A model generated the notes under the pieces. The model did no database searches and was not told where the DNA came from. It worked only from the letters and a program-made list of their open reading frames with translations. Shown here piece by piece: positions 1 to 13,198 of a stretch of DNA of 44,256 nucleotides (position 1 is the stretch's first letter; each line of letters starts with the position of its first letter). The DNA lies in assembly GCF_000934845.1 (NCBI RefSeq), contig NZ_JXIQ01000192.1, positions 1 through 44,256 on the forward strand, written 5' to 3'. The translations under genes were made by a program, and so were the position numbers. The stretch comes from Mesobacillus subterraneus (GTDB lineage Bacteria; Bacillota; Bacilli; Bacillales; Cytobacillaceae).

Positions 1-51
1 TACATTTCAGTGGCCGTAATCACTCTAATGACGATTGGTAGAGAACACAAG

Positions 52-78
52 AAGCGCAGAGTATTTCCCTGCGCTTTT
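52..78. terminator. Hairpin terminator at the left edge
   Basis: AAGCGCAG at 52-59 pairs perfectly with CTGCGCTT at 69-76, with a 9-base loop, and TTTT follows on the + strand. It can end a rightward gene lying outside the window. It may also end the leftward nuclease operon, whose last stop codon is at 103, but the T-run on that strand is poor. Confidence 0.6.
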
Positions 79-102
79 GTACATTGCTGCTAATAAAGGT
101 TT

Positions 103-1932
103 TTACATAGATTTAATTATTTCTAAGAGTTCCTGGTTTTTATCTTCTCCAAACAATCTTACCATCTCTCGATACAACTCTTCCTCATCGTTCCAATCCT
201 CTATAAACACAGGTTTTGAAAACAATCGAGTATATCTAGATGTTGGCAATTTTGATTGAGCAGCAAAAGCAATTCCCATTTCTTCCAACTGGTTAATCAA
301 CTTAATTCTTTGATCAGCTTGCAATGGCCCTAATTCCAAAGTCAATTTTAATCGATCATCTCTTAATCGCTCAAACCAGTAAGTGAAAGTACTGTCATGC
401 CACCACCATTTTTCTCGAGTAACCCCAAATTTTTTCTCTAATTCTCGGAACTCACTCATCAAAAAAGAGGCATTCTTGTTGCTGATTCGATAAAGTGACG
501 GATCAATTCCCTGAATTTCAGCAAATTTCGCGAAAGGATTTGGAGGGAATTGTTCAGATGTTCTCTCGCTAATCTTCCGCTCTTCTAGTACCTCTTGTTC
601 CAGCTTGTTTTCAATCTTCTCAACGGCTTTGGCAATTTTCCTAAGAGTACCCTTAAGATCCTCATCATGATATAAAGTTTCCATGCCAGTAACAACTTCT
701 TGCTTGTTTGCCCAATCAATTATACTCAAAGTCTCAGTATATATTTTTGTGTATTTTTTGCCCTCTAATTTGGCTGTAGGACGAATAGAAATACCTTGAA
801 ATTCCAGTGCATGAAGCAACTTTAAACGGTTCTCATACGGGACAGGTCCTACCTCGATGGAAATTTTCAATCTTTCATTCCATGTCCTTTCGAACCATAT
901 GATCAACCCATGCCCTCTCCAGTAACCCTGTTCCGGTTCTCCTATGGTCTCGGTATAATCTAGCCATTCAGGCAAAATAAAATTTGGAACCTGAGCATGT
1001 GCTTTATAAACTTCTATAGGGAGGTCCTCGAGCTGAACAAATGATAAAAATGCTTCATGAAGGACACTACTTCCAATTTTAAAGATGTAGTCTATCGTTT
1101 GCTTTTTTTTAGCATAGATTCTCTTTAAGGCATTTTGTTGTACTATTAACAACCCGTCAATCCAATTATAAATATCACGATATCTTGGTTGTTTACGGAA
1201 CTCATCATGTTGACTTAGATATAGAAAATCCACAGCAGCCTTATTTGTTTGATATACATCTTGGGCAAGTTGAATCGCTTCCTCATCTTGTACAAGTTCT
1301 TCTTTCAGTATTGCAGTATAATGCATTAAGAAATCGAAAATACTTTCTGACATAATTTCACGATTTAACTCAATATGTAAAAGAATGATATCCATTAGGT
1401 CATTATAGTCGAGCACCCAGTATTCAGGGTGAGTCGGTGCATCGCTCCTAAGGGTTAGGAAAATCGGAATAACCTTAAAATCCTTATAAACCCTTTTTGC
1501 ATATTCTAAATAATCATTAAGCTGTCCCATAGATTCTGAAGCATGAAATTTATTTTCAATAACCAGAACCATCTTTTGAGAGGGAACTACAACAACAATA
1601 TCAATATATCGATTGGCATGTGTCTTTACCTCGCGATAAACTTCAATATCTGAGAAAGAAGCATGCATATATGTCAGAAAGTCGATTTCAGCTAATTTAT
1701 CTTCATTTTCCTGCCTAGTCACCAAACGAGAGACTACTTTCTTAATAAAAAAGTTTCCTAACTGATGATTCTCGCTCGGGTCTAATAACCAAGCAAGAAC
1801 ATTTGAGTGCCTAATTTCAAATTGATCGACACGTAAAACTTTTAATGGATTAAACTGATGAAACTTTTGGTGGAGCTGTGCAAACTCCTTTGAGTGATCC
1901 AATTGTGCAATGCTTTCTATCGAAAAAGACAT
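103..1932 (-). CDS. PD-(D/E)XK nuclease family protein (PDDEXK_4-like) with a duplicated C-terminal domain
   Basis: This 609-residue protein starts with a region typical of the PF14281-type PD-(D/E)XK family: the conserved RHSNVLAWLLDP stretch at residues 41-52 and a catalytic set D111, E126, K128 (IDIVVV then LVIENK), followed by Q137. The nuclease core therefore looks intact. The C-terminal half holds two similar segments, about residues 337-425 and 507-595, each with a W..RL.....E.GP..... KL...L pattern, linked by a charged helical stretch. ATG at 1932 has AAGGAAGG upstream. The gene lies 16 bases after the McrC-like gene and is the last gene of that operon, which suggests an effector or accessory nuclease of a McrBC-like restriction system. 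The role is inferred; the fold assignment is fairly secure. Confidence 0.8.
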   Translation of the reverse strand: MSFSIESIAQLDHSKEFAQLHQKFHQFNPLKVLRVDQFEIRHSNVLAWLLDPSENHQLGNFFIKKVVSRLVTRQENEDKLAEIDFLTYMHASFSDIEVYREVKTHANRYIDIVVVVPSQKMVLVIENKFHASESMGQLNDYLEYAKRVYKDFKVIPIFLTLRSDAPTHPEYWVLDYNDLMDIILLHIELNREIMSESIFDFLMHYTAILKEELVQDEEAIQLAQDVYQTNKAAVDFLYLSQHDEFRKQPRYRDIYNWIDGLLIVQQNALKRIYAKKKQTIDYIFKIGSSVLHEAFLSFVQLEDLPIEVYKAHAQVPNFILPEWLDYTETIGEPEQGYWRGHGLIIWFERTWNERLKISIEVGPVPYENRLKLLHALEFQGISIRPTAKLEGKKYTKIYTETLSIIDWANKQEVVTGMETLYHDEDLKGTLRKIAKAVEKIENKLEQEVLEERKISERTSEQFPPNPFAKFAEIQGIDPSLYRISNKNASFLMSEFRELEKKFGVTREKWWWHDSTFTYWFERLRDDRLKLTLELGPLQADQRIKLINQLEEMGIAFAAQSKLPTSRYTRLFSKPVFIEDWNDEEELYREMVRLFGEDKNQELLEIIKSM

Positions 1933-1948
1933 ATAAAATCCTTCCTTC

Positions 1949-3421
1949 CTAACTCGTAAGGTAGTCCATGCTTGTTAATACTATTTGTTTTAATTCACTA
2001 TTAAGACTACCTGGCACTATCTGTATAGCACCCATTCCAAAATTCTCTCGAAACTCCACATCAAAATACCTCAGCGAATCCACTTGATCATCTGATGTAG
2101 GAGTTAAAATGTAAACTTCCTTTACTGCCTTTTCGCCAGATTCCCGATGTATGATTCCATCTCGATATTTGTGCATTTCCCCTAGTGCGGTTCCAATGTT
2201 TCCAGGTATCCTGTACTTCGGATCAAACACAATAATGCCGTCATTTCCTTCTAATACAATATCCGGAATCATTCTCTGCGTATATGTATGGAAGGTCTTA
2301 GAGTTATATTGATAGGATCGCTGAAAGTATAGAGTCATGCCGTTTAGCAATTGTAAAGAACTCTGTTTGTTTTCAGCTAAGTTCAAGAACAATCCATCTT
2401 TTGTTGTCTTAAAAAGATTGCTGGTGTCTTTAATTAAATTGGACTCTCTTAATATTTTAACCACATACATGTAACACCACATTTCATACAAGAAAAAGGT
2501 GTCCTTCAAAGCGATTGGGTAAGAAAATCCAATTCCTTCCCTTCTATGCTTGTAGAGCTTACCAAACCATTCATACCATAATCGATAAACAGGATGCTTC
2601 CTAAATGTTTGTGTTATGTTGTATGGACCTTTATTCTCGACAATTCCTGTTAAAAACGGGCTATTCATCCAGTATCGAAGAATCGATATATATCTTTTGG
2701 CTTTCATTGATACAGATTCAATTTCTGCCTCTTCATAGTTCCTTAGCAGCCTGAATAAATCTATTACTTGCTGCTTTAAAACCTGATTCTCATAAAGGTT
2801 TATCGTTTCGTATGTTTTAGACGTTTCAACATGCGTGGGAATATCTCGACCGTGCCCTTTTCTGTCCAACCAAGATAAAGTCGTCTGTTCAGCTCTCTGA
2901 ACTTTTTCTCTTTTTATGATGGTAGTCTGTTTCTTTAATTTTCTGATTGGCTTGCTTTCTATCTTCGAAAATATTTGTCGAAGCTGCTGAAAATTTCGCT
3001 CAATATAACTCCATTGCGTCCAAGATAGCTCTCGACTCTTCCCGTAAGTGTTAACCTGTATTTCCAAACCAGATAACTGAAAACAAATATTGGCCTCCGC
3101 CAATATGTCTTCAATCATTAAAGTATATTGCTCTTCAGTTAGCTTACGTTGATCAGGATAAACATAAGACTCAAACTCCTGTCCATTAATTGAGATTCTT
3201 AAGCTACCACTTTGAAACGGAGTAAACATAGTTGCATTGAGAACATGCTCTTGTCTGTAAAATGGCAAAGGTACATCTTGGATAGTGACATCGATGCTAT
3301 CTCCTCTATAACGGAGTTTATACTCAGCGGCTTCTGTTAAATACACATCGGTAATATGGATCCATCCTTGGTTAACATCCAATATTTCAAGGTAGTTATC
3401 TCCAGAATTGAGTGGCTCCAT
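1949..3421 (-). CDS. McrC-like restriction nuclease subunit (DUF2357 / PF04411 type)
   Basis: The product of about 490 residues resembles the DUF2357 proteins that pair with McrB-type motor proteins. The C-terminal part carries a PD-(D/E)XK site: IPDIVLE with D387, then VFDPKYR with D400 and K402 (numbered from the start chosen here), preceded by the family's YEMW motif near residue 312. The N-terminal part is beta-rich and probably contacts McrB. An in-frame ATG exists at 3454, but only the ATG at 3421 has a ribosome site (GGAG about 5 bases upstream, GAGGAG further up), so I chose it. The start overlaps the McrB stop by 26 bases, a sign of translational coupling. In McrBC systems this subunit cuts DNA once McrB has hydrolysed GTP; whether this pair prefers modified DNA cannot be read from the sequence. 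Confidence 0.82.
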   Translation of the reverse strand: MEPLNSGDNYLEILDVNQGWIHITDVYLTEAAEYKLRYRGDSIDVTIQDVPLPFYRQEHVLNATMFTPFQSGSLRISINGQEFESYVYPDQRKLTEEQYTLMIEDILAEANICFQLSGLEIQVNTYGKSRELSWTQWSYIERNFQQLRQIFSKIESKPIRKLKKQTTIIKREKVQRAEQTTLSWLDRKGHGRDIPTHVETSKTYETINLYENQVLKQQVIDLFRLLRNYEEAEIESVSMKAKRYISILRYWMNSPFLTGIVENKGPYNITQTFRKHPVYRLWYEWFGKLYKHRREGIGFSYPIALKDTFFLYEMWCYMYVVKILRESNLIKDTSNLFKTTKDGLFLNLAENKQSSLQLLNGMTLYFQRSYQYNSKTFHTYTQRMIPDIVLEGNDGIIVFDPKYRIPGNIGTALGEMHKYRDGIIHRESGEKAVKEVYILTPTSDDQVDSLRYFDVEFRENFGMGAIQIVPGSLNSELKQIVLTSMDYLTS

Positions 3422-5624
3422 AATACTCCAACTCCTCTTGCATCCTTTTGACATGTTTTAGCGAGATGGAATCAGCCTCAAGGTTTTCCTTAAGCCAAAC
3501 TTCCATCTTTCTTAACATTTCAGCAATCCTTTCATCACCACGAACCTTCGTTAACACCTTTTCAGAAATAACCCGATCCAAAGCTTTTAAAGACTCCATT
3601 TGATGTTCCTCAGGCAACTGATTATTAACAAACAGCTTGCGCAACATTTCCCCCATCGTCCGGTAACCAAAATGAAGTTCGTACGTTAATAACATCTGAT
3701 GCAATTCCTTTAGCATGGCAAACTCTCTGCCAAGTATTTCCTTGATATCCTTGTCTGCACGATCCCAGTATGAATTAAAGTCAACATCAGACAAAGTCAT
3801 GACAAATGCACGATCAAGTACTTTATCAGAAATTGAATGAGTGGTTTCATCGACATTAATCGTGCCTAGTAGATAGACATTTGGCGGAATTAATAGCTTT
3901 TTAGGGATTTCATCTATATGGTCATCTTGATGCAATGGTATTTCTTTTCTTGATTCAACCGCGCTAAGATAATCACTTAAATAGTATTCAACTCGAGCAA
4001 GATTCATTTCATCAAGTAAAATAAAATGAGGTTTCTCCCGTTCCTTCAAAGCATTTAGGATCACACTAAGAAACTCTGTTCTTACATAGCGCTTCTCAAA
4101 TGAACTATAGTATCCAAATAGAGCACTGGCATCAGTCCAATCAGGTCTTACCGGAATAATCGTGAAGTACGGATTTTCATCCTCATACTCTAGACCATAG
4201 ACAGCATTAGTATACAATCGGCATAATTGTGTTTTTCCGGTTCCTGAAATGCCGCTTAAAAGAACAAAATGCTTATCATCAAGGGCAGTTAAATTTAGAT
4301 GCAGGTCCCGGATAATTTCTTTTGAAAAAGTGAAACTACTATTTGTTATAGTCTGATAGATTTCCTCAAACTGAAAATTCGGTTCAAGTAAATCAGTATT
4401 CTCAGTAGGTGCATCCACTAAATCCACTTCTTCGTCCTGTTCATCAGTAGGCAATTCAAGTTTTTGGCTTGCATGCGCAAATAATAAAGCAGCGTCTATG
4501 AAGTTTTTCTTAACTTGTTCATTACCTTCAACAAAAGTTTGAGTCTCATTATTAAAACTACCAACTTTATAAACATTGCTTCCTGCTTCAATTCCATGTT
4601 CGTTCAATAATTTCATTGCCTCTGCCATTACCTGATGGTTATCCAAGCTTTGTGTGGTAAATGATTTTGAAATCCGCCATTCCTTAATACCGTTACCTAA
4701 AATTTCACGAGCATTTGTAAATATATGATTATGCCCTTCTATCTGTACCATGATGGTTTGAAAAGGAGAGAACTTCTCATGAAACTCAAAATAATATAGA
4801 AAACCCTTTGTAACCATCTGATCGCTTTCATAGATATGAAACGATTGTCGCTTAGCATTTGTTTTGTATCCTTCCACAGAAGAGATATCAACTGAATATG
4901 TACTCCCTAGCAGTTCAGTTTCCTTTATATTTCTAGTTGAAGCCAGTGCCGTTAATGCATTATAAGTTTTATGCGAAATATCAATTTCTTGATGAAAATA
5001 AGTTCTATATTGCTCCAACTGATCCCACGTTTTCAGTAAGTTATCAATTAAGAACTGTTCCTCTAGGTTCCCTTCTAAAGGGAGACTCATTCCAATTTGA
5101 AACCACGGTCGTCTTCTTGGTTTAATACAATCTTTAATATACTTTACAAAGTCCTCTCTGGGGATCTTCTCTTTTTCTTTCCAACCAGTCAAAATATCGA
5201 ATTCCAAGGGAATCGAGTTTAGTACACTATCTATCTTCTCATTTTTATACCAGACCCAAAACGGAATAAAGTTAATCTCATGGTGGATAAGGAGTACTTG
5301 GCTGAATCCCTTAAGTTCCAAAGTGATTAAGTTATATTCCTTATCGTTCACTTTGGTATACAACCCGACAAAGTATTTGCGGCCAATATCTGATACTTTT
5401 TTCTTCTCAGCATAAGTGGGATTTCTGGCATCGTGATAAGTTGTGGACAATGTAGTATCGTATCTACGTATATAAACATCTTCATTTAATTGAATATCTA
5501 ACTTTTCTACAAAACGTTCAAACAATGGTTTAATAACCGGAGAAATTTCATCTAATGCCTTTCTGCATCGGAATTCTGTATTATCCATGGTTAAAACAGA
5601 TCGAAAATGATTGAGATCAAGCAT
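3396..5624 (-). CDS. McrB-type AAA+ motor protein of a McrBC-like restriction system
   Basis: This 742-residue protein has an N-terminal recognition-type region (about 1-180, resembling the MrcB_N/DUF3578 class), a middle region, and a C-terminal AAA+ module. Walker A is GISGTGKT at 458-465, Walker B is ILLDE at 535-539, and the McrB-style sensor stretch GTINVDETTHSISDKVLDRA is at 587-606 with R605 as the likely arginine finger. The ATG at 5624 has AAGGTG six bases upstream. It is the first gene of a leftward three-gene operon, followed by the McrC-like subunit and a PDDEXK_4 nuclease. By family knowledge the protein forms a nucleotide-driven ring that recognises target DNA and activates the nuclease partner. 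The target of the N-terminal domain is unknown. Confidence 0.85.
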   Translation of the reverse strand: MLDLNHFRSVLTMDNTEFRCRKALDEISPVIKPLFERFVEKLDIQLNEDVYIRRYDTTLSTTYHDARNPTYAEKKKVSDIGRKYFVGLYTKVNDKEYNLITLELKGFSQVLLIHHEINFIPFWVWYKNEKIDSVLNSIPLEFDILTGWKEKEKIPREDFVKYIKDCIKPRRRPWFQIGMSLPLEGNLEEQFLIDNLLKTWDQLEQYRTYFHQEIDISHKTYNALTALASTRNIKETELLGSTYSVDISSVEGYKTNAKRQSFHIYESDQMVTKGFLYYFEFHEKFSPFQTIMVQIEGHNHIFTNAREILGNGIKEWRISKSFTTQSLDNHQVMAEAMKLLNEHGIEAGSNVYKVGSFNNETQTFVEGNEQVKKNFIDAALLFAHASQKLELPTDEQDEEVDLVDAPTENTDLLEPNFQFEEIYQTITNSSFTFSKEIIRDLHLNLTALDDKHFVLLSGISGTGKTQLCRLYTNAVYGLEYEDENPYFTIIPVRPDWTDASALFGYYSSFEKRYVRTEFLSVILNALKEREKPHFILLDEMNLARVEYYLSDYLSAVESRKEIPLHQDDHIDEIPKKLLIPPNVYLLGTINVDETTHSISDKVLDRAFVMTLSDVDFNSYWDRADKDIKEILGREFAMLKELHQMLLTYELHFGYRTMGEMLRKLFVNNQLPEEHQMESLKALDRVISEKVLTKVRGDERIAEMLRKMEVWLKENLEADSISLKHVKRMQEELEYYGATQFWR

Positions 5625-5789
5625 AGAAGCACCTTCTTTGTTTATTAATAACTATTAATTTAATACTACTAAAGATAGTATGGAAATAAAAGTCTGTGAA
5701 TAATTATCATAAGTCAATGAATACTAATTAAATCTCAATAAGTGGTAGACTAAATATAATAGAGTTAATATTTAAAGCGAAGGTTGCTA

Positions 5790-6515
5790 ATGTATAAAAT
5801 CTCGAAATATAAAGCGGAGAGTATTGAGCCAGTGACATTCTCAGATTTAGGGATGCAAGAAAGTGATATAGAGGAATTGTTAAGGAACAATATTGAAATG
5901 ATTGCTGATGAGGAAAAATCAATGCTCATTGTGGGTCAACAGGTACGAAATGTACATTATGGACGCAGTGATTTGATAGCATTTGATAACAACGGAGACA
6001 TCGTTCTGATTGAAATCAAGAGAGATCGCAAAGATATAGAAAACCGAAAAGAATCTTTTGAATTCCAGGCTATACGATACGCTGCAAGCTATGCAACTAT
6101 TAAAGATCCAGAAGACTTGGTAACAAAAATCTACGCTCCCTATATTGATAAACACCGTCGTGATTTCGATATCGAATCTCTAACTAGCTTCGAATTAGGC
6201 AGCAGAAAATTATCAGCGTTCCTTCAAGAACACAATGCCATAAACAGTTTTAATCAAAAACAACGGATAATCCTGGTAGCTTCAGACTTTGACGAACAAA
6301 CTCTTTCAGCTGTTGCCTGGTTAAACAGTAATAATGTAGATATGAGTTGCATTAAACTAACACCATATATAATTGCCGAGGAAGTATATTTAAATGTTGA
6401 AAAAGTACTGCCACTGAACGAATACGATGATTATTTTGTGAATTTCTTAGAAAAGTCATCTCCGTTATCCAATCTAAAATTAAAAATATCTCAAGGCGAG
6501 CCTTACCTAAGATAG
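5790..6515 (+). CDS. DUF91/NucS-like PD-(D/E)XK endonuclease, apparently cut short by a frameshift
   Basis: The 241-residue frame has a PD-(D/E)XK core: GRSDLIAFD with D61, then VLIEIKR with E75 and K77. This matches the endonuclease NucS/DUF91 class. I chose the ATG at 5790, which has AAGG six bases upstream; a TATAAT lies at 5755-5760. The frame stops at 6515, but from about 6488 the -1 frame continues smoothly (ALPKIDSM) into the conserved-looking 83-residue segment at 6521-6772, so the natural product is probably one protein of about 325 residues. The gene diverges from the McrBC-like operon across a 165-base promoter region and may be part of the defence island. The loss of one base in the A-run at 6482-6486 would explain the break. 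Confidence 0.72.
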   Translation: MYKISKYKAESIEPVTFSDLGMQESDIEELLRNNIEMIADEEKSMLIVGQQVRNVHYGRSDLIAFDNNGDIVLIEIKRDRKDIENRKESFEFQAIRYAASYATIKDPEDLVTKIYAPYIDKHRRDFDIESLTSFELGSRKLSAFLQEHNAINSFNQKQRIILVASDFDEQTLSAVAWLNSNNVDMSCIKLTPYIIAEEVYLNVEKVLPLNEYDDYFVNFLEKSSPLSNLKLKISQGEPYLR

Positions 6516-6520
6516 ACTCA

Positions 6521-6772
6521 ATGCTGGAATGGGGCGTTGTAAAAGCTGGAGAAGTAATAAAAGCCAAAGACTTTCCTGATGAAGGGGTTCTTTTAGCAAA
6601 CGGTAATATCCTTGTGAATGACACAGAACAATCCATGCAAAAGTGGTTAAAAGGATTATATGGATGGTCTAGTATCCAAACGTATGTATTTGCGATTCAT
6701 AAAGAATCTGGGAAAAGCCTCTCGCAGATACGCCATGAGTATATGGAGAGTATGGATGCAGGTAACATTTAA
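6521..6772 (+). pseudogene. Frameshifted C-terminal part of the NucS-like nuclease (RAMA/DUF4357-like domain)
   Basis: The 83-residue frame has the pattern of small DNA-binding RAMA/DUF4357-type domains: a short beta region (GVLLANGNILVND), then GLYGWSSIQTYVF and a helical end. Its reading frame is open upstream of the ATG and lies in the -1 frame of the preceding nuclease, with only 5 bases between stop and ATG. No ribosome site precedes the ATG. The simplest reading is that it is the severed C-terminal domain of the nuclease at 5790. It could instead be a separately translated small protein by stop-restart coupling. Confidence 0.55.
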
Positions 6773-6864
6773 CCTTCGGCTTGACCCTATCGTATTAGTA
6801 ATTAGAAAAACATCCTTCTAGATGTTATTATTAGCACATTAGTATAATTTTCTTGGAGGCTCAA

Positions 6865-7278
6865 ATGAAAAAGCTAGTTAAAGTAGTTGCAGCAATAATC
6901 GAAAACGACAAAAACGAAATTTTATGCGCGCTAAGATCACCCGAAATGGCAATTCCAAACATGTGGGAATTCCCAGGTGGAAAAGTTGAAACGGGTGAGG
7001 ATTTATATTCGGCCCTTCAAAGAGAGATAGACGAAGAATTGAAATGCATGATTGAAACTAGTGATGATATCTTTAACGATACAACCCATGAATACGATAC
7101 ATTTATCATCAACTTGCTATCAATCAAATGTAAAATAATTTCTGGAACACCAATTCCAAGTGAGCACTCTAAGCTAATCTGGCTAAAAAGAGAGAACTTA
7201 GCCTCTCTCAAATGGGCTCCAGCTGACATTCCAGCTGTAGAACAATTAATCCACGAAAAAATAGTCTTCTCAAATTGA
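6865..7278 (+). CDS. NUDIX hydrolase, MutT-like
   Basis: The 137-residue product contains a full NUDIX box, GGKVETGEDLYSALQREIDEEL in pattern (G-x5-E-x7-REUxEExGU), near residues 40-60, with the preceding MWEFPGGK typical of MutT. Enzymes of this class hydrolyse nucleoside diphosphates linked to another moiety, often dNTPs or modified nucleotides. I chose ATG 6865, with GGAGG five bases upstream. A TTG at 6853 gives four more residues but lies on the ribosome site itself. The gene converges on the PLD-helicase operon and shares a terminator with it. A second nucleotide-cleaving enzyme (the MazG-like protein) starts that operon, so nucleotide metabolism may be part of the island's job; this is inference. 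Confidence 0.85.
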   Translation: MKKLVKVVAAIIENDKNEILCALRSPEMAIPNMWEFPGGKVETGEDLYSALQREIDEELKCMIETSDDIFNDTTHEYDTFIINLLSIKCKIISGTPIPSEHSKLIWLKRENLASLKWAPADIPAVEQLIHEKIVFSN

Positions 7279-7295
7279 GAAGACTATACTTTTTT
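7256..7295. terminator. Bidirectional terminator shared by two convergent genes
   Basis: ATAGTCTTCTC at 7261-7271 pairs perfectly with GAGAAGACTAT at 7277-7287 around a five-base loop. T-runs flank it on both strands. The stop codon of the NUDIX gene (7276-7278) is at the loop edge and the helicase stop (7284) is in the stem, so both genes end inside the hairpin. Confidence 0.85.
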
Positions 7296-10097
7296 AGTGA
7301 ACTCTGTATATAAAGATGAAGGAACTTCATTCTCTAATTCCATTCTTACTGTAATTGGCTTGTCCCCTTCAAACTGAACAGAATTTCCCTTGCCAATATA
7401 AATATAAGGCTCTGTCTTACCGTCGATTTCTCTATACTTTCTTATAAACAAGTGAAGGTTAACCCCTCGTTGTTTGTTATAAATAATATTCTTACCTCTT
7501 TCAGATTGTTGAGTTGTGCTATTGACAGATTGCCATTGGAATTCACTTCTACTAATGAATTTGTCTTGATAATTAATGCTCTCTTTAACATCTGCTTCTT
7601 TATGTAAATCCACAAACAAAAAGAATTCGTTGCCATTTACCAAGAGACCAGATCCTCGAAATGAGCTGTGGATTTTGCGATAGTTAGAAAGTAATGCAGC
7701 ATCGATCATTTGATATTGTTCATACAGTTTGAAATGCGGCATTCCATAGTAATCGCTTCTGAATTCCTTTTCATACCTGAAAATACCGTATGAGATCACA
7801 TCAACAATATATTTACGATAGTCTGCATGCTCCAATAACACTGAGAATGTTTTTGTCTTCACTAGTTTCCCATCGCTAAAATTGAACAACTTCGGTTTAG
7901 TCTTCAATTGGCCAGAATCATAATAGTTCTGATTAAGACATTCAAATGCATGGAGTATGGTATCAGGATCAACATTCTTAACCAATTTCAAAATCTGTTG
8001 CTTCGCAATCTCTACATCGATCGAGTCATGGTCTAACAAATATCGAATGATAACAAACTCATGAATTCGTTTAAGTGGCAGCTTACAAGATAACTCTTTT
8101 AATGCTCCTTCGAATGCATCGTTAAGAAGAAGCTTTTTAAGGGAATCATCTTTTTCTACTTTTGCAACAAACTGCAAATATGTTTTCTCTTTATCTATAA
8201 ACTTAACCGCGTCCGGAGCACCGTCATATTTCAAAAAATCCACTAATAAATATGGAATTCGCCCTGAATTAAGCTTTTTAAATTCATTGTACTCTTCTTT
8301 TAAATACCTCATTGAATTAAAGTTTTCCCGATCAATTTGCTCTAAAATTCTCTCTTGAGATATTTTATCCATCTGAATATGTGTAGCACCAGGTATATTA
8401 GCAAAACCAGTGGTGATCGCAACCTTCAAGCTCTCTTTATCATAATATCGACTCCCATTCAGAGCTAAAGCTATAAGAAAAGTCTTGTTGTGATTTCCGA
8501 TAAAATCTAGCACAGTCAAAAAAATTTTATTTCGAAACTTCCTTAGTCCTCTACCAAGTTGCTGAATAAACACAATTGGCGAGTTAGTAGGCCTTAACAT
8601 TAACACTGTATTAACAGATGGAATGTCCACACCTTCATTAAAAATATCCACGCTGAAAATAAATTCTAATTCATCATGGTCATCTTCTAATTTGTTTATA
8701 TAGAGCTGCCGCTTTTCAGAAGAATCGCCGCCATGTAAAATAACACTTTTATAACCTCGTTGGTTAAATTCACTAGCCATATATTGAGCATGGTCGATAC
8801 TTGCACAAAACCCAAGACCTTTTCTCTTATCACCATCATGACCATAGAAGTCCATCTTCTCCACAATAAAATCGACTCGTTCATTCACTTTCAACCTTTT
8901 TGTGATTTCAGCAATATCATCGATATCAACATCACTCAAATCAACACTCTCAATATCGGTGATCCCAAAATAATGAAATGGGATGACCAGTTCATCCTCA
9001 AGAGCGTCATGTAACCTGACTTCTAAAGCTACATTATTATCAAAAATATCAAAGATATTCCGGCTATCGCTTCGTTCAGGTGTGGCCGTCATACCTAAAG
9101 TAAACTTCGGCTCAAAATAATTTAAAATGGTTTGATAAGTTGGACTAGCAGCATGATGTGCTTCATCAATTATCATATAATCAAATTCATCTTTCTCGAA
9201 CTCATGAAAATACTTAGAAATCGTTTGGATAGTCGTAAAAACATAGTCTACATGTTTTTGTTTATGGTTGCCTGTTAATAGACCAAATGAATAGCCTTCA
9301 TTAGGTAGAAGTAACTCAAAAGTCTCCTTGGCTTTTTTCAAAATTTCTTCTCGATGCACAACAAATAAAAGTTTACGAGGATTGAAACTTTTCACATCAA
9401 ATGCAGACATATAGGTTTTCCCAGTACCTGTTGCTGCAATGACTAGTGCTTTATTTTCTCCATAACTTCGTAACCGTTCCAGATTCTCAGTTGCTCGTCT
9501 CTGCATCCGGTTTGGAACAACATATTTTCTGTCTTCATATATAATATTTTGAGCATGATTTGATTTCTTAAATCGCTCAAGAAATTCTTCATAGCGTTTA
9601 ATAAAATCATGATCAGCTTCGACACTCATCTCCCATAGATTATTGTACTCTTTTATGACATCCTTGATAAAATGGGCTTCCTCTTTAGATATTATTTTGA
9701 CATTCCACTCAATATTGCTTTTTAAAGCGCTCTGCGTAATATTGGAGGACCCGATTATAACCTTAAAATGATCTTTATAGTCAAAAATGTATGCTTTTGT
9801 ATGAAAACCAATTTCCTTATCAGTCACAAAAACTTTTAATTCAACATTAGAAAACTCTTTTAATTTTTCTAATGCTTTGGCATCCGTAAAATTAAGATAG
9901 GTTGACGTAATAATCTTTCCTTTTGTACCCTTCTTCTCTGCTTCTTTAATAGGATCCAACAAAAGCTGCAGTCCACTGAAATTAATAAATGCAACACTAA
10001 AATAAAACCGTTCACATTCCTGTATGGATTCTACTAACTCCGTTAATAGATTACCAGCTTCGGAGTTTACGATTAATTCCTTCTCTCCTAGATCCAC
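7284..10097 (-). CDS. PLD-like nuclease / SF2 DEAH-box helicase fusion with DUF3427-type C-terminus
   Basis: The 937-residue protein has a phospholipase D-like domain at about 1-160 with one HKD motif (FHTKAYIFD: H99, K101, D106; then GSSN 116-119). An SF2 helicase follows: Walker A ATGTGKT at 222-228, DEAHH at 311-315, TATPERSD at 337-344, and motif VI QQLGRGLR at 512-519. The long C-terminal part ends in a region resembling DUF3427. One HKD motif per chain means that an active PLD-type site would need a dimer. The ATG at 10097 has a weak ribosome site. It lies 114 bases after the other PLD-helicase on the same strand and is probably the last gene of that operon. A DNA- or RNA-translocating nuclease in defence is a reasonable inference; the substrate is unknown. 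Confidence 0.82.
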   Translation of the reverse strand: MDLGEKELIVNSEAGNLLTELVESIQECERFYFSVAFINFSGLQLLLDPIKEAEKKGTKGKIITSTYLNFTDAKALEKLKEFSNVELKVFVTDKEIGFHTKAYIFDYKDHFKVIIGSSNITQSALKSNIEWNVKIISKEEAHFIKDVIKEYNNLWEMSVEADHDFIKRYEEFLERFKKSNHAQNIIYEDRKYVVPNRMQRRATENLERLRSYGENKALVIAATGTGKTYMSAFDVKSFNPRKLLFVVHREEILKKAKETFELLLPNEGYSFGLLTGNHKQKHVDYVFTTIQTISKYFHEFEKDEFDYMIIDEAHHAASPTYQTILNYFEPKFTLGMTATPERSDSRNIFDIFDNNVALEVRLHDALEDELVIPFHYFGITDIESVDLSDVDIDDIAEITKRLKVNERVDFIVEKMDFYGHDGDKRKGLGFCASIDHAQYMASEFNQRGYKSVILHGGDSSEKRQLYINKLEDDHDELEFIFSVDIFNEGVDIPSVNTVLMLRPTNSPIVFIQQLGRGLRKFRNKIFLTVLDFIGNHNKTFLIALALNGSRYYDKESLKVAITTGFANIPGATHIQMDKISQERILEQIDRENFNSMRYLKEEYNEFKKLNSGRIPYLLVDFLKYDGAPDAVKFIDKEKTYLQFVAKVEKDDSLKKLLLNDAFEGALKELSCKLPLKRIHEFVIIRYLLDHDSIDVEIAKQQILKLVKNVDPDTILHAFECLNQNYYDSGQLKTKPKLFNFSDGKLVKTKTFSVLLEHADYRKYIVDVISYGIFRYEKEFRSDYYGMPHFKLYEQYQMIDAALLSNYRKIHSSFRGSGLLVNGNEFFLFVDLHKEADVKESINYQDKFISRSEFQWQSVNSTTQQSERGKNIIYNKQRGVNLHLFIRKYREIDGKTEPYIYIGKGNSVQFEGDKPITVRMELENEVPSSLYTEFTKKV

Positions 10098-10211
10098 GCT
10101 ATCACCTTAATCTTTTTCATAATTACTTATATGTAAAATCATACTATAAATGGATAAATTTAATAAGGAATTTTTGGTATTAACTTGGTCAATATAAAAC
10201 AGCACTACTAA

Positions 10212-12644
10212 TTAATGAGTGCTATTCATTGCTCTTCTTTCAAAATGTACATGCAAACGGTATTCAGTAATTTCTCTTGTCCAGTGATAAAGAATTTCTT
10301 GGTCTTCTTCTAAAACATCAAAGTTTATACTGAATTCTCCCTCTGAAAAACTGGTTAATCCAACTGCTCCACGATTCCACATTGTCATTGGCATCGTTTC
10401 AATGAGCTTACTGACAGCTTTTTCATCGTATTCCCATATTTTTTTCGATGACTTATCCGAGAAGTCGATCCTTTTTCTATATTCTGTTTCAGTCAAGTAA
10501 TGATGGAAAAATGGTGCTACTTCTTTTGAAGTAATTGGTTTAAACCATTTAGTGCTACCTCGATTGAGCATAGCCAGCAGCAAAACCATTTTATAGCTTT
10601 TCGACATGCTGGTCTTTTCAACTTCTACTAGCCAATTCTCGTACCGCTCAAATACTTCTTGTTCTTGTTCACTTAACTCCTTTGCCCAATTTAAGAAACC
10701 TAAATAAGAGTTAAACTCTTGCCTATATTGAGAGGAATCAGAGTGCCCCTTTAGATGCAATTCAAGGTATGTAGGCCGTCTGCCAAGAAGATATTTAAGG
10801 TCAAAGTAGTCATCAAGCAGCTTTTCTTTACGTGGAGATCTTTTCTTAGCCATTTCTTTGAGTAGGTTGACCACCTGAACATCGAGATTCAGCTCACAAT
10901 TTGAAGGAATTCTAGGTTCAATCTGCTTAGACTTGCTTTCACTACTTTTGGTATCAAATAAACTTAACTTTACATCCGCATTTCGATAATTTCCAATTAA
11001 GTCGATGATCACACAATAGTCTTTATCTGGAGCTAATCGGAGACCACGACCGATTTGTTGGGTAAATACAGTTAATGATTCTGTAGGCCTTACAAATAGA
11101 AGGGTATCTACTGCTGGAATATCAACACCCTCATTGAATAGATCGACAGTAAATATGATATCCAGTTCTCCTGCTTCAAGCATTTTTATCGCATGCGCAC
11201 GACCTACTTCTTTTTGTTGTGAATGAAGGCTGACTGTTTTATACCCCTGGTTGTTAAAAAAGCTAGAAAGAAAGTTTGCCTGTCTAATGGAAGAACAAAA
11301 ACCAATAGTTCTTGTCTGTTTTTTATCTTTCCAGGCTTCCAATATTTTCGAAGCCATCACTTCTTTTAACTGTATGTGAAGAAGTTCCTCCTCATCATAT
11401 CGTGTTCCCAACCAGGTAATTTGGCTATAATCTGTTTCGTCGTATACTCCATAGTACTTAAATGGAGCTAGCCAATTACGATTAATCGCATCAAGGAAAT
11501 CAAGACGGTATGCTACGTTCCCTTCACAAATAGCGTAAACATCTTTATTATCATTACGATCTGGAGTAGCCGTGATTCCAAGTAAGAATTCAGGTTTAAA
11601 ATAGTCCAATACCCTCTGATAAGATCCAGCTGCAGCATGATGAAATTCATCCACTATAATCAAGTCAAACTCATCTGGACTAAATTTCTCAATATGAGCC
11701 TTCATACTTAAAGTATAAATGGAAGCAAAAATAGCATCTGCATCGCTATCCTTGTTCTTTCCATTATATATTCCATACTTTTTGTCGGGCATAATATTTT
11801 CGAAAGATTGCCTTGCCTGGAAAAGAATTTCTTCTCTATGGGCAATAAATAATACATTTTTATAATCCTTCGCAAAAAAACCAGCAAGATAAGTTTTTCC
11901 TAACCCTGTAGCCATTACTACCAAGGCCTTCTGATATTCTTCTTCCCTGGTCTTTTCAAGTTCCTCAAGCGCCTCCAGTTGAGCAAACCGGGGCTTTATA
12001 TCTCCATATGTTGTACTTATTGGTGGATCATGGATAATTAATGGTTGGACAGGCAAATCTTTTGGAGTAGGTAACATCAAATTCAGTTCTTCTGTATTTG
12101 ACCAAACCTTCGCTAAATTTGGGTTATCTTTATGGTATTGGTGATAAACTGCAGTATAGTCTTTTAATGTTTCATCATTTAATTTAACAGTTTGGTCAGC
12201 ATAAAATATCTTTAGAAATTCATCTAGCGCATCGGTGAAGACTGTCTTCTCATTGCTTACTGATAGGTTCCATTCAATTCCATTGTTTAGAGCTGATTTT
12301 GATAGATTCGAAGATCCTATAAATAAGCAATCCTCAGAATCTGACTTAAACAAATAAGCCTTCGGATGAAAAGAAATTCCATTACTTTTCCAAAGACGAA
12401 TTTCAATGTTCTCATCAGTCGCAAATAATTCTGCAAGACCATCAGGCTGAGTAATATATAGATAATCCCCCGTACATAATTTAATATCCGCACCGGCTTT
12501 AGCAGCATTTATCAAAGTGTCTTTTAAAAAAACAACACCAGATTTCATAACAAAAGAAGTCAGAATACATATTGTCGACGCATTCTCAATCTGACTCAAT
12601 AAATGACTACCCAAGTCATTTGTAATTAATTCAATCCTACTCAT
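10212..12644 (-). CDS. Second PLD-like nuclease / SF2 helicase fusion (divergent paralogue)
   Basis: The protein has about 810 residues from the ATG at 12644 (GAGG upstream; a TTG at 12656 would add four). The layout is the same as in its neighbour: a PLD-like domain at about 1-150 with FHPKAYLF (H93, K95) and GSSN at 110-113, then an SF2 helicase with ATGLGKT at 245-251, DEFHH at 332-336, TATPDRND, and QQIGRGLR at 529-536. In the HKD motif the usual acidic residue after HxKxxxx is K, so PLD catalysis may be altered. The C-terminal 250 residues look different from the neighbour's DUF3427 region and I do not recognise them. The start overlaps the MazG-like gene's stop by 8 bases, so translation is coupled. 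Two unlike PLD-helicases in tandem suggest they work as a pair. Confidence 0.8.
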   Translation of the reverse strand: MSRIELITNDLGSHLLSQIENASTICILTSFVMKSGVVFLKDTLINAAKAGADIKLCTGDYLYITQPDGLAELFATDENIEIRLWKSNGISFHPKAYLFKSDSEDCLFIGSSNLSKSALNNGIEWNLSVSNEKTVFTDALDEFLKIFYADQTVKLNDETLKDYTAVYHQYHKDNPNLAKVWSNTEELNLMLPTPKDLPVQPLIIHDPPISTTYGDIKPRFAQLEALEELEKTREEEYQKALVVMATGLGKTYLAGFFAKDYKNVLFIAHREEILFQARQSFENIMPDKKYGIYNGKNKDSDADAIFASIYTLSMKAHIEKFSPDEFDLIIVDEFHHAAAGSYQRVLDYFKPEFLLGITATPDRNDNKDVYAICEGNVAYRLDFLDAINRNWLAPFKYYGVYDETDYSQITWLGTRYDEEELLHIQLKEVMASKILEAWKDKKQTRTIGFCSSIRQANFLSSFFNNQGYKTVSLHSQQKEVGRAHAIKMLEAGELDIIFTVDLFNEGVDIPAVDTLLFVRPTESLTVFTQQIGRGLRLAPDKDYCVIIDLIGNYRNADVKLSLFDTKSSESKSKQIEPRIPSNCELNLDVQVVNLLKEMAKKRSPRKEKLLDDYFDLKYLLGRRPTYLELHLKGHSDSSQYRQEFNSYLGFLNWAKELSEQEQEVFERYENWLVEVEKTSMSKSYKMVLLLAMLNRGSTKWFKPITSKEVAPFFHHYLTETEYRKRIDFSDKSSKKIWEYDEKAVSKLIETMPMTMWNRGAVGLTSFSEGEFSINFDVLEEDQEILYHWTREITEYRLHVHFERRAMNSTH

Positions 12645-12963
12645 CTTCAACCTCAATTAAAAAAACCTTCTCCTTAAATCCACCGCGCTTTTCAGCCTTC
12701 TGCTTTCTAACTTCTTCCACTTCTACAATAGAAGAACCATGGTATTCAGAAAGAGCGTGTATAATCTCTAACAAATCTGCAAGTTCTTCAACAGCATCTT
12801 TCTTGTTAACAGTATTAACATATTCATCTAGTTCTTCATAAGCTTTTTTCTGAAGTTGTTCTATGTATTCAGATTCCTTTAAAATCCTTGTTGAGAATTT
12901 CTTTCCTGCAAGTTCAATTATGTCTGGTATACGATCACGTACTAGTTTATTATATGTCGGCAT
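12637..12963 (-). CDS. MazG-like nucleoside triphosphate pyrophosphohydrolase
   Basis: The 108-residue protein begins MPTYNKLVRDRIPDII, a common opening of the small MazG/phosphoribosyl-ATP pyrophosphohydrolase-like family. Its two metal-binding helices show EELDE and VEELADLLE, fitting the EExxE...ExxD pattern. Such enzymes cleave NTPs or dNTPs to the monophosphate and pyrophosphate. I chose ATG 12963 because GGAGG lies eight bases upstream; the open frame extends further but without support. It is the first gene of the operon, overlapping the PLD-helicase by 8 bases. A TATAAT is present about 40 bases upstream on this strand. Tight coupling to a nuclease-helicase suggests nucleotide depletion or sensing in defence rather than histidine synthesis. 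Confidence 0.83.
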   Translation of the reverse strand: MPTYNKLVRDRIPDIIELAGKKFSTRILKESEYIEQLQKKAYEELDEYVNTVNKKDAVEELADLLEIIHALSEYHGSSIVEVEEVRKQKAEKRGGFKEKVFLIEVEDE

Positions 12964-13198
12964 TTTATCTCCTCCAATGTACTTTAAAAGTAACATAATC
13001 ATTCCCTTATAATTATAACTTTACAGAGAAGATTTTAATAGCAAACTATGTTTTAAATCAACTAAAAACAGGGATTTGGTGAAAAGGATGTGGAGTCAAC
13101 CTAATTTAGATTGCACTTGATTTCTTTACAGTTCACTTACTCGGTAACCTATCAACTTATTTCTTCATTTAATCTGATACAAAGCTGAATCATTAATT

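Follow-up and report, generated by a model that had tools for sequence, protein, structure and literature searches.

Recurrent pairing of SauUSI-like and sister nuclease-helicases with small nucleotide hydrolases suggests a nucleotide-pool guard in restriction

Introduction

The restriction enzyme SauUSI cuts DNA containing 5-methyl- or 5-hydroxymethyl-cytosine (PMC7913695, PMC3874153), and is the closest described relative of one of four genes analysed here, which lie together at positions 6865–12963 of a 44,256-base stretch of Mesobacillus subterraneus DNA (one contig, NZ_JXIQ01000192.1, of a 3.9-Mb assembly; the whole stretch is referred to hereafter as the window). The four encode a NUDIX hydrolase, a SauUSI-like PLD-SF2 nuclease-helicase (Hel2), a second PLD-SF2 nuclease-helicase (Hel1) and a MazG-like pyrophosphohydrolase. 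An initial annotation had put them forward as a candidate new defence system; its placement of the four genes agrees with the sequence, and its domain calls (one MazG-like protein, two PLD-SF2 helicases, one of these with a DUF3427 end) were upheld.

Neighbours of SauUSI have been recorded before. In Streptococcus, MutT stands beside SauUSI homologues (legend to Fig. 9 of PMC7641849), and in Streptococcus suis the family PDC-S07 and restriction–modification (RM) type IV co-localise in 23 of 23 occurrences (PMC12813430), the same gene pair as NUDIX and Hel2 of the window. The available text of these two papers gives no mechanism for NUDIX and mentions neither MazG nor a second helicase, and the words nudix and MutT are absent from the main text of the SauUSI structure paper (PMC7913695) and from that of the type IV review. 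The SauUSI family and the NUDIX–SauUSI adjacency are already known, the latter being unexplained in the print available to us.

Relatives of the two small enzymes are described as housecleaning proteins. NudG (Orf135) is listed as a 5-methyl-deoxycytidine triphosphate (5-methyl-dCTP) pyrophosphatase (PMC5389931); for the human MazG-like enzyme DCTPP1, the Michaelis constant (Km) is lower with 5-methyl-dCTP than with dCTP, and when the enzyme is knocked down the 5-methyl-dCTP pool and the global level of DNA methylation both rise (PMC4491611); mycobacterial MazG removes 5-OH-dCTP, which is so kept out of DNA (PMC3855555), and that of Mycobacterium tuberculosis is a broad nucleoside triphosphate (NTP) pyrophosphatase (PMC10014863). 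The window enzymes have the catalytic motifs of these proteins; they differ in being coupled to nucleases. A further point of comparison is McrBC restriction, which is modification-dependent and employs an AAA protein with a PD-(D/E)XK nuclease, not a PLD-SF2 protein; certain genomes have this MazG family coupled to MrcB_N–McrC genes, and no MazG gene adjoins the McrBC-like operon of the window.

Here, we report that the locus consists of two adjoining modules, not clearly one operon—SauUSI-like gene with NUDIX, MazG-like gene with Hel1—that both pairings recur far beyond chance, and that the two modules have a strong tendency to join. We tentatively propose that the small hydrolases guard the nucleotide pool on behalf of the nucleases.

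Results

Hel2 and its NUDIX neighbour

Among 41 intact SauUSI-like genes, a NUDIX gene is found no more than 500 nt away in 22 (only those encoding at least 900 residues were counted, leaving out 11 of 52 loci); three of the 41 came from a genus search rather than the phylum draw, and without them the figure is 19 of 38. Among SauUSI-like genes encoding fewer than 1000 residues, the neighbour is present in 13 of 15. Its placement varies (nine convergent at the 3′ end, seven co-directional on the 3′ side, six co-directional on the 5′ side), and such variation in side and strand while adjacency stays constant argues for a functional link rather than the shared ancestry of one operon. The enrichment is local: 22 NUDIX genes fall in the 116 kb within 1.5 kb of SauUSI-like genes, against one in the 507 kb further off, the corresponding numbers for MazG at the same loci being two near and seven further off.

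The reverse search, with NUDIX alone in 319 genomes of the class, returned 113 genes at E up to 1e-18, of which 70 lie beside a PLD-helicase—50 by coordinates (no more than 1.6 kb from the PLD-SF2 region of a helicase in the list, the spans of five helicases coming from separate locus searches) and 20 more on inspection, a 300-nt rule being applied to the other 63. In the S. aureus record, a NUDIX gene lies directly upstream of sauUSI (NUDIX ends at 2376 and the first possible SauUSI start is at 2378), in contrast to the convergent gene of the window; it is annotated as a (deoxy)nucleoside triphosphate pyrophosphohydrolase, and its product is identical to PDB 5x1x over 130 residues. NUDIX is adjacent to the SauUSI-like gene in four of the plasmid records (12 opened of 19), and the pair occurs on Lactobacillaceae plasmids and on one from a Hymenobacter, which belongs to another phylum.

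Two side observations concern NUDIX genes in other company. On a Lactobacillus plasmid (L269, 810–3405), a DUF262 gene, which we take to be GmrS-like, has a NUDIX gene some 400 nt upstream of it; a third restriction type may here have entered the same partnership. At five loci (L321, L323, L326, L332, L333), a NUDIX gene and a MazG gene share a strand and are separated by 20–40 nt, and the stretch fetched contains no PLD-helicase; this points to a class of substrate common to both enzymes and not tied to the nuclease.

Hel2 itself matches the SauUSI structure (PDB 7clg) over residues 7–905 (E = 2.6e-173) and carries the same parts nearly full length: a PLD nuclease domain (HxK motif with His99 and Lys101, GSSN at 116), an SF2 ATPase (GTGKT at 224, DEAH at 311, TATP, and QQLGRGLR at 512; ResIII 135 bits, Helicase_C 61 bits) and a DUF3427 region made up of coupler and SRA-type target domain (PF11907, 224 bits, model positions 7–280 of 280). 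The catalytic residues are kept, the PLD His and Lys being invariant in 64 of 64 intact SauUSI-like proteins, and the PADLOC model mREase_IV matches at 578 bits. These motifs and profiles identify Hel2 as a predicted SauUSI-type type IV restriction enzyme. A separate clade of SauUSI-like proteins, of at least 1000 residues, has a conserved N-terminal extension of ~145 residues ahead of the PLD domain (L055, L056, L057, L062 and relatives); we considered a hidden HIT, NUDIX or MazG domain there and rejected it, with no Pfam match in nine extensions scanned and none with the profiles used here.

The NUDIX protein (Pfam NUDIX_4, 53.7 bits; PADLOC PDC-S07, 166 bits) carries the Nudix box GX5EX7REUXEE at position 39, whose catalytic residues do not vary among 43 distinct NUDIX proteins encoded next to SauUSI-like genes. 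Against solved structures it scores 118 bits with 5x1x, 67 with 3gwy, 59 with NudG (2rrk) and 41 with MutT (1mut); the best NCBIfam models are PRK08999 (97 bits), PRK10546 (91) and MutT (70), all below their curated cut-offs. An APADIP stretch is common to this protein and NudG, and its Asp121 is again invariant in 43 of 43. These comparisons place the enzyme nearer to NudG and the CTP pyrophosphohydrolases than to MutT.

Hel1 and its MazG-like neighbour

We searched for MazG and, by profile, for Hel1 in 398 genomes of the class, drawn regardless of these genes; Hel1 is present in 83 and MazG in 136 (a Hel1 locus being a match over 600 bits, which gave 83 loci and left out the smaller fragment G685). 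For 74 of the 83, MazG is the gene directly 5′ of Hel1 on the same strand, the gap from one match to the next being −5 to +11 nt, and six of the nine Hel1 genomes that do not have this junction are without any MazG match. An in-frame stop interrupts eight of the 83 Hel1 matches. In a second set, the best 80 of 574 confirmed Hel1 loci, MazG is directly upstream in 63 by a strict rule and anywhere in the locus in 70; the hosts are mostly Bacilli, with Halonatronum, Sulfobacillus and a few metagenome bins labelled as other groups, and several Hel1 copies are in pieces. The MazG family also adjoins MrcB_N/McrC genes in 5 of the 59 genomes with MazG but no Hel1 match (by coordinates; three opened).

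The MazG-like protein contains the EExxE/ExxD metal motif (EELDE at 43, ELAD at 60), with E43, E44, E47, E60 and D63 invariant in 34 sequences. Its predicted structure is all-helical (predicted local distance difference test, pLDDT, 96), for which the top Foldseek match is E. coli MazG at a weak E of 0.28; a profile search of the PDB likewise gave a weak best match (E = 0.0058) to residues 138–223 of the bifunctional histidine enzyme HISN2, and phosphoribosyl-ATP pyrophosphatases and MazG-type proteins make up most of the best among these weak matches. Scores against Pfam and NCBIfam models all stay under cut-off, and nothing in PADLOC 2.0.0 matches at E up to 0.001; a Pfam Hormone_recep match (22.1 bits, below the cut-off of 23.5) was taken as chance.

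Hel1 contains the Pfam domains PLDc_2, ResIII and Helicase_C, with HxK at 93, GSSN at 110, GLGKT at 247, DEFH at 332 and QQIGRGLR at 529, and is 31% identical to Hel2 over 725 alignment columns. The catalytic motifs kept across relatives of each of the four make it probable that all are active enzymes. A Pfam scan did not find DUF3427 in Hel1, and PADLOC mREase_IV covers only the nuclease-helicase part (14–595 and 17–654); in the AlphaFold model (pLDDT 82.7), which has SauUSI as its top fold match, the C-terminal part is largely helical with one small hairpin. We considered Hel1 as a second SauUSI and rejected this, since it has no target domain and its genomes do not avoid C5 methylases. Genomes with a SauUSI-like gene, on the other hand, are poor in cytosine-C5 methylases (11 of 34 vs 195 of the other 364; odds ratio 0.41, p = 0.02, kinship ignored), the 34 being those with a protein under about 1000 residues among the matches listed.

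Several Hel1 loci were seen beside genes with PADLOC models: DISARM DrmA (L198, 12275–15613), a PDC-M33 set and NERD-UvrD (L179, 3328–12989) and HEC-06/Orf5 (L245, 5715–7562).

Joining of the modules and other partners

Hel1 occurs in 16 of 34 genomes with a SauUSI-like gene vs 67 of the other 364 (odds ratio 3.9, p = 3e-4, kinship ignored, among the matches listed). In the 80-locus set, a SauUSI-like gene lies within 8 kb of Hel1 in 20, and all four genes are together in 16; they are also together in another family (L050), so their association is more than a local coincidence. The arrangement is not constant: 15 four-gene loci display five different arrangements (the tally left out L193, in which NUDIX is 1.6 kb from the SauUSI-like gene), and on a quick tree of 73 Hel1 proteins (from 81 Hel1 loci; no shuffles reported) the state "SauUSI-like neighbour" changes at least 12 times. 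The co-occurrence search proposed with the initial annotation thus finds the four genes repeatedly in company, as two separately conserved pairs and not as one fixed set; a single fixed four-gene operon is rejected, since the pairs also occur apart and in these five arrangements.

A third hydrolase fold appears in the same place. HIT-family genes lie within 1 kb of Hel1 at L191, L194, L195, L197, L219 and L251, and occur in further loci including L133, L134, L135, L139, L143 and L157; at L195 and L219 HIT replaces MazG. In one metagenome bin (L253), a PLD-SF2-DUF3427 protein begins with a fused HIT domain, and a NUDIX gene lies 527 nt 5′ of its gene; the Hymenobacter plasmid carries HIT, NUDIX and a SauUSI-like gene in a span of 5.1 kb. 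Of the 80 loci, 73 have one or more of MazG, NUDIX and HIT within 1 kb of Hel1; of the seven others, L222 and L233 start at a contig end.

L073 (6279–12932), related to the window only at the level of phylum, has MazG, NUDIX and a SauUSI-like gene lined up consecutively on the same strand, plus an SF2 helicase. We considered it as a four-gene row and rejected this, as its helicase has no PLD match and is therefore not Hel1; a weak REase_MTES_1575 match makes it perhaps another nuclease in the place of Hel1. On a Lactiplantibacillus plasmid (L260, 3457–8852), NUDIX, a SauUSI-like gene, a MazG-like gene of another family (PF12643) and a GIY-YIG/SLFN-g3 helicase stand in a row, and a nucleotide pyrophosphohydrolase is annotated beside such a helicase in L268 and not in L267, L269 or L270. 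This second MazG–helicase pairing was seen in two of five plasmid loci opened (eight found), too few to use.

Locus layout and setting

Table 1. Features of the four-gene locus (window positions).
Feature	Position	Strand	Details
NUDIX hydrolase gene	6865..7278	+	ATG at 6865, stop ends 7278; 137 residues
Hairpin, terminator common to the convergent genes	7261..7287	both	12 pairs, loop of 3, T runs on both sides
SauUSI-like gene (Hel2)	7284..10097	-	GTG start; 937 residues; PLD nuclease, SF2 ATPase, DUF3427
Hel1, the other PLD-SF2 nuclease-helicase	10212..12644	-	ATG at 12644; 810 residues; without DUF3427
MazG-like, predicted all-alpha NTP pyrophosphohydrolase	12637..12963	-	108 residues
Overlap of MazG stop and Hel1 start	12637..12644	-	8 nt, read from the sequence

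The features of the locus are collected in Table 1. The predicted eight-base overlap of the MazG-like stop with the helicase start is there in the sequence, and would be expected to couple the translation of the two genes. At the other end, the stop codons of NUDIX and Hel2 are 5 nt apart, both inside a hairpin that is terminator-like on either strand (fold z-scores −5.8 and −5.1), as had been proposed for a convergent gene with a shared terminator. What had been called one leftward operon keeps its gene order; the single transcription unit is less clear, since the 114-nt gap between Hel1 and Hel2, together with the reshuffled gene order among relatives, indicates two modules.

The defence setting, including the McrBC-like operon alongside, was borne out. 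That operon (103–5624, minus strand) comprises AAA (3396–5624), DUF2357-PDDEXK_7 (1949–3454) and PDDEXK_4 (103–1932) genes, the AAA protein matching PADLOC PDC-M26A and the PDDEXK_4 protein PDC-S26; its AAA and DUF2357 genes also adjoin the locus in the relatives L034 and L036. The G+C content is 0.356 over 1–13002 vs 0.415 over 13242–44256. A SauUSI-like gene was found in 5 of 21 genomes of the genus, which makes the locus part of an accessory island.

Some genus copies are broken: a stop lies inside the SauUSI-like gene of G017 (C33, L035), and Hel1 is in two pieces in G020 (C1, L036). Between the McrBC-like operon and NUDIX, a PDC-S11-like gene (5784–6772, plus strand) is split in two frames (243 and 83 residues); in the genus relatives L034 and L037 it is a single unbroken frame of 326–344 residues.

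Discussion

The gene content of the locus, the intact catalytic motifs, and pairings that are both conserved and repeatedly rebuilt call for an account of what joins nucleases to nucleotide hydrolases. Here, we infer the substrates of the enzymes, their protective role and the target of Hel1. In the reading that we prefer, and hold as a possibility still short of an even chance, the small hydrolases remove nucleotides—probably modified pyrimidine deoxynucleoside triphosphates (dNTPs)—that would otherwise mark DNA for cutting. The SauUSI-type enzyme would read a modified base with its C-terminal domain (5-methyl- or 5-hydroxymethyl-cytosine in SauUSI), translocate on DNA and cut; its NudG-like NUDIX partner would hydrolyse modified (deoxy)cytidine triphosphates, and the MazG-like pyrophosphatase would be translationally coupled to the sister nuclease-helicase Hel1. 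Modified dNTPs may come from the salvage of degraded foreign DNA or from a phage base-modification pathway, and 5-methyl- or 5-hydroxymethyl-dCTP put into the chromosome by polymerase would make the host itself a SauUSI target. By barring these nucleotides from DNA, the hydrolases would spare the cell's own chromosome, and the same hydrolases would cut a phage's supply of them. A guard that keeps the trigger out of the pool, or strips a phage of it, would be consistent with unrelated hydrolases having been recruited to the same site.

A wider form of the proposal is that NUDIX, MazG-type and HIT folds have been recruited to one role, as a regular guard component of modification-dependent and related translocating restriction enzymes, SauUSI then being a two-component system with an overlooked second part; this we advance with more reserve, putting it at perhaps one chance in three.

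A number of observations weigh against a pool guard. Of the six residues modelled in the 5-methylcytosine pocket of SauUSI (Met829, Tyr831, Phe841, Ile842, Asp858, Trp868; PMC7913695), Phe841, Asp858 and Trp868 are identical in Hel2 and Ile842 is replaced by Val; Tyr831, which contacts the methyl group, is replaced by Leu818, and Met829 by Ser816. The position of Tyr831 is Tyr in 19 and Leu in 11 of 32 SauUSI-like proteins under 1000 residues (the window protein included). With Leu818 and Ser816 in its pocket, Hel2 may have an exact target that differs from that of SauUSI, and is best described as SauUSI-like with a target possibly shifted. SauUSI-like genes encoding at least 1000 residues have NUDIX within 500 nt in only 9 of 26, leaving 17 of 26 without, and 8 of the 12 plasmid records opened have no adjacent NUDIX. 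On the side of the hydrolases, 43 of the 113 NUDIX relatives have no PLD-helicase next door (four have a helicase 0.9 to 2.8 kb away, five lie 20–40 nt from MazG, and the rest have neither), and 24 of 60 fetched MazG loci have neither Hel1 nor MrcB/McrC adjoining; both families, occurring also alone, have uses elsewhere. No HIT enzyme is known as a dNTP pyrophosphatase. Last, a C5 methylase (PF00145) is present in 42 of 83 Hel1 genomes vs 164 of the other 315 (206 of 398 overall), so Hel1 genomes are not poor in these enzymes and Hel1 need not read 5-methylcytosine.

The rival that survives best, though we find it doubtful, is that the locus serves genome upkeep, at least for MazG and Hel1: MazG and NUDIX would clear oxidised dNTPs, and the helicase-nucleases would excise DNA that had taken them up. 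The action of mycobacterial MazG on 5-OH-dCTP (PMC3855555) would suit such a repair module, as would the presence, besides restriction enzymes, of RadD and XPB among the nearest solved relatives of Hel1 by profile and fold, and Hel1 is found in 30 of at least 37 genomes of family f165 in the class sample, as a housekeeping gene might be. Overall, however, Hel1 is patchy (83 of 398), and its in-frame stops (8 of 83) and several copies in pieces are unlike genome upkeep; its closest structure is a restriction enzyme, and its neighbours match PADLOC DISARM DrmA, HEC-06/Orf5 and PDC-M33 (ten proteins scanned).

We regard as unlikely a regulatory arrangement, in which the small hydrolase binds or degrades a controlling nucleotide, or contacts the nuclease, and so acts as a switch and not a cleaner. 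The tight MazG–Hel1 junction and the finding of three unrelated hydrolase folds at the same place, with one fusion, would suit a switch, and the HIT and NUDIX families both include dinucleoside-polyphosphate hydrolases. Set against this, the varying orientation of NUDIX makes stoichiometric coupling with the SauUSI-like enzyme unlikely, and SauUSI acts on its own: one polypeptide shows activity both in vitro and when cloned in E. coli (PMC3874153).

Abortive infection is less probable again. Here MazG and NUDIX, switched on by infection, would deplete the canonical dNTPs or NTPs as the nucleases cleave DNA, for which the broad NTP pyrophosphatase activity possible in MazG-type enzymes (PMC10014863) would be apt; against it, no sensing part is seen in either the MazG-like protein (108 residues) or NUDIX (137 residues), and both small families also occur alone. 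The initial annotation had likewise considered nucleotide depletion or signalling; given the NudG-like and MazG-like relatives, the removal of modified pyrimidine nucleotides is the more economical account. That ordinary housekeeping enzymes merely happen to lie in what is indeed a defence island, their families having solitary members, is hardly credible in the face of 74 of 83 MazG–Hel1 junctions within −5 to +11 nt, 22 NUDIX genes near vs one far from SauUSI-like genes, five arrangements of the two modules, and NUDIX–SauUSI pairs on Lactobacillaceae and Hymenobacter plasmids.

As to novelty, the combination had been offered as one not known under a system name. This holds for the MazG–PLD helicase pair, of which, as of the three-fold NUDIX/MazG/HIT pattern, we found no report in the open-licence literature searched; it does not hold for the second helicase, which is of the known SauUSI kind, or for NUDIX, which is PDC-S07 in PADLOC. 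The PADLOC comparison suggested at the outset names Hel2 and NUDIX, covers Hel1 over its nuclease-helicase part and leaves the MazG-like protein unmatched.

The recurrence of these couplings in many bacteria suggests that this kind of restriction enzyme works with a nucleotide-pool guard. The MazG–PLD helicase pair is very common, its helicase occurring in 83 of 398 genomes of the class, and is a candidate for a defence screen. If the guard proposal is true, PDC-S07 would become testable on a defined list of substrates, and SauUSI—called in the title of its structure paper a major barrier to gene transfer in Staphylococcus aureus (PMC7913695)—would gain an unstudied partner with a solved structure. 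It would also explain how a cell that keeps an enzyme destroying modified DNA escapes self-poisoning by salvaged or phage-made modified nucleotides.

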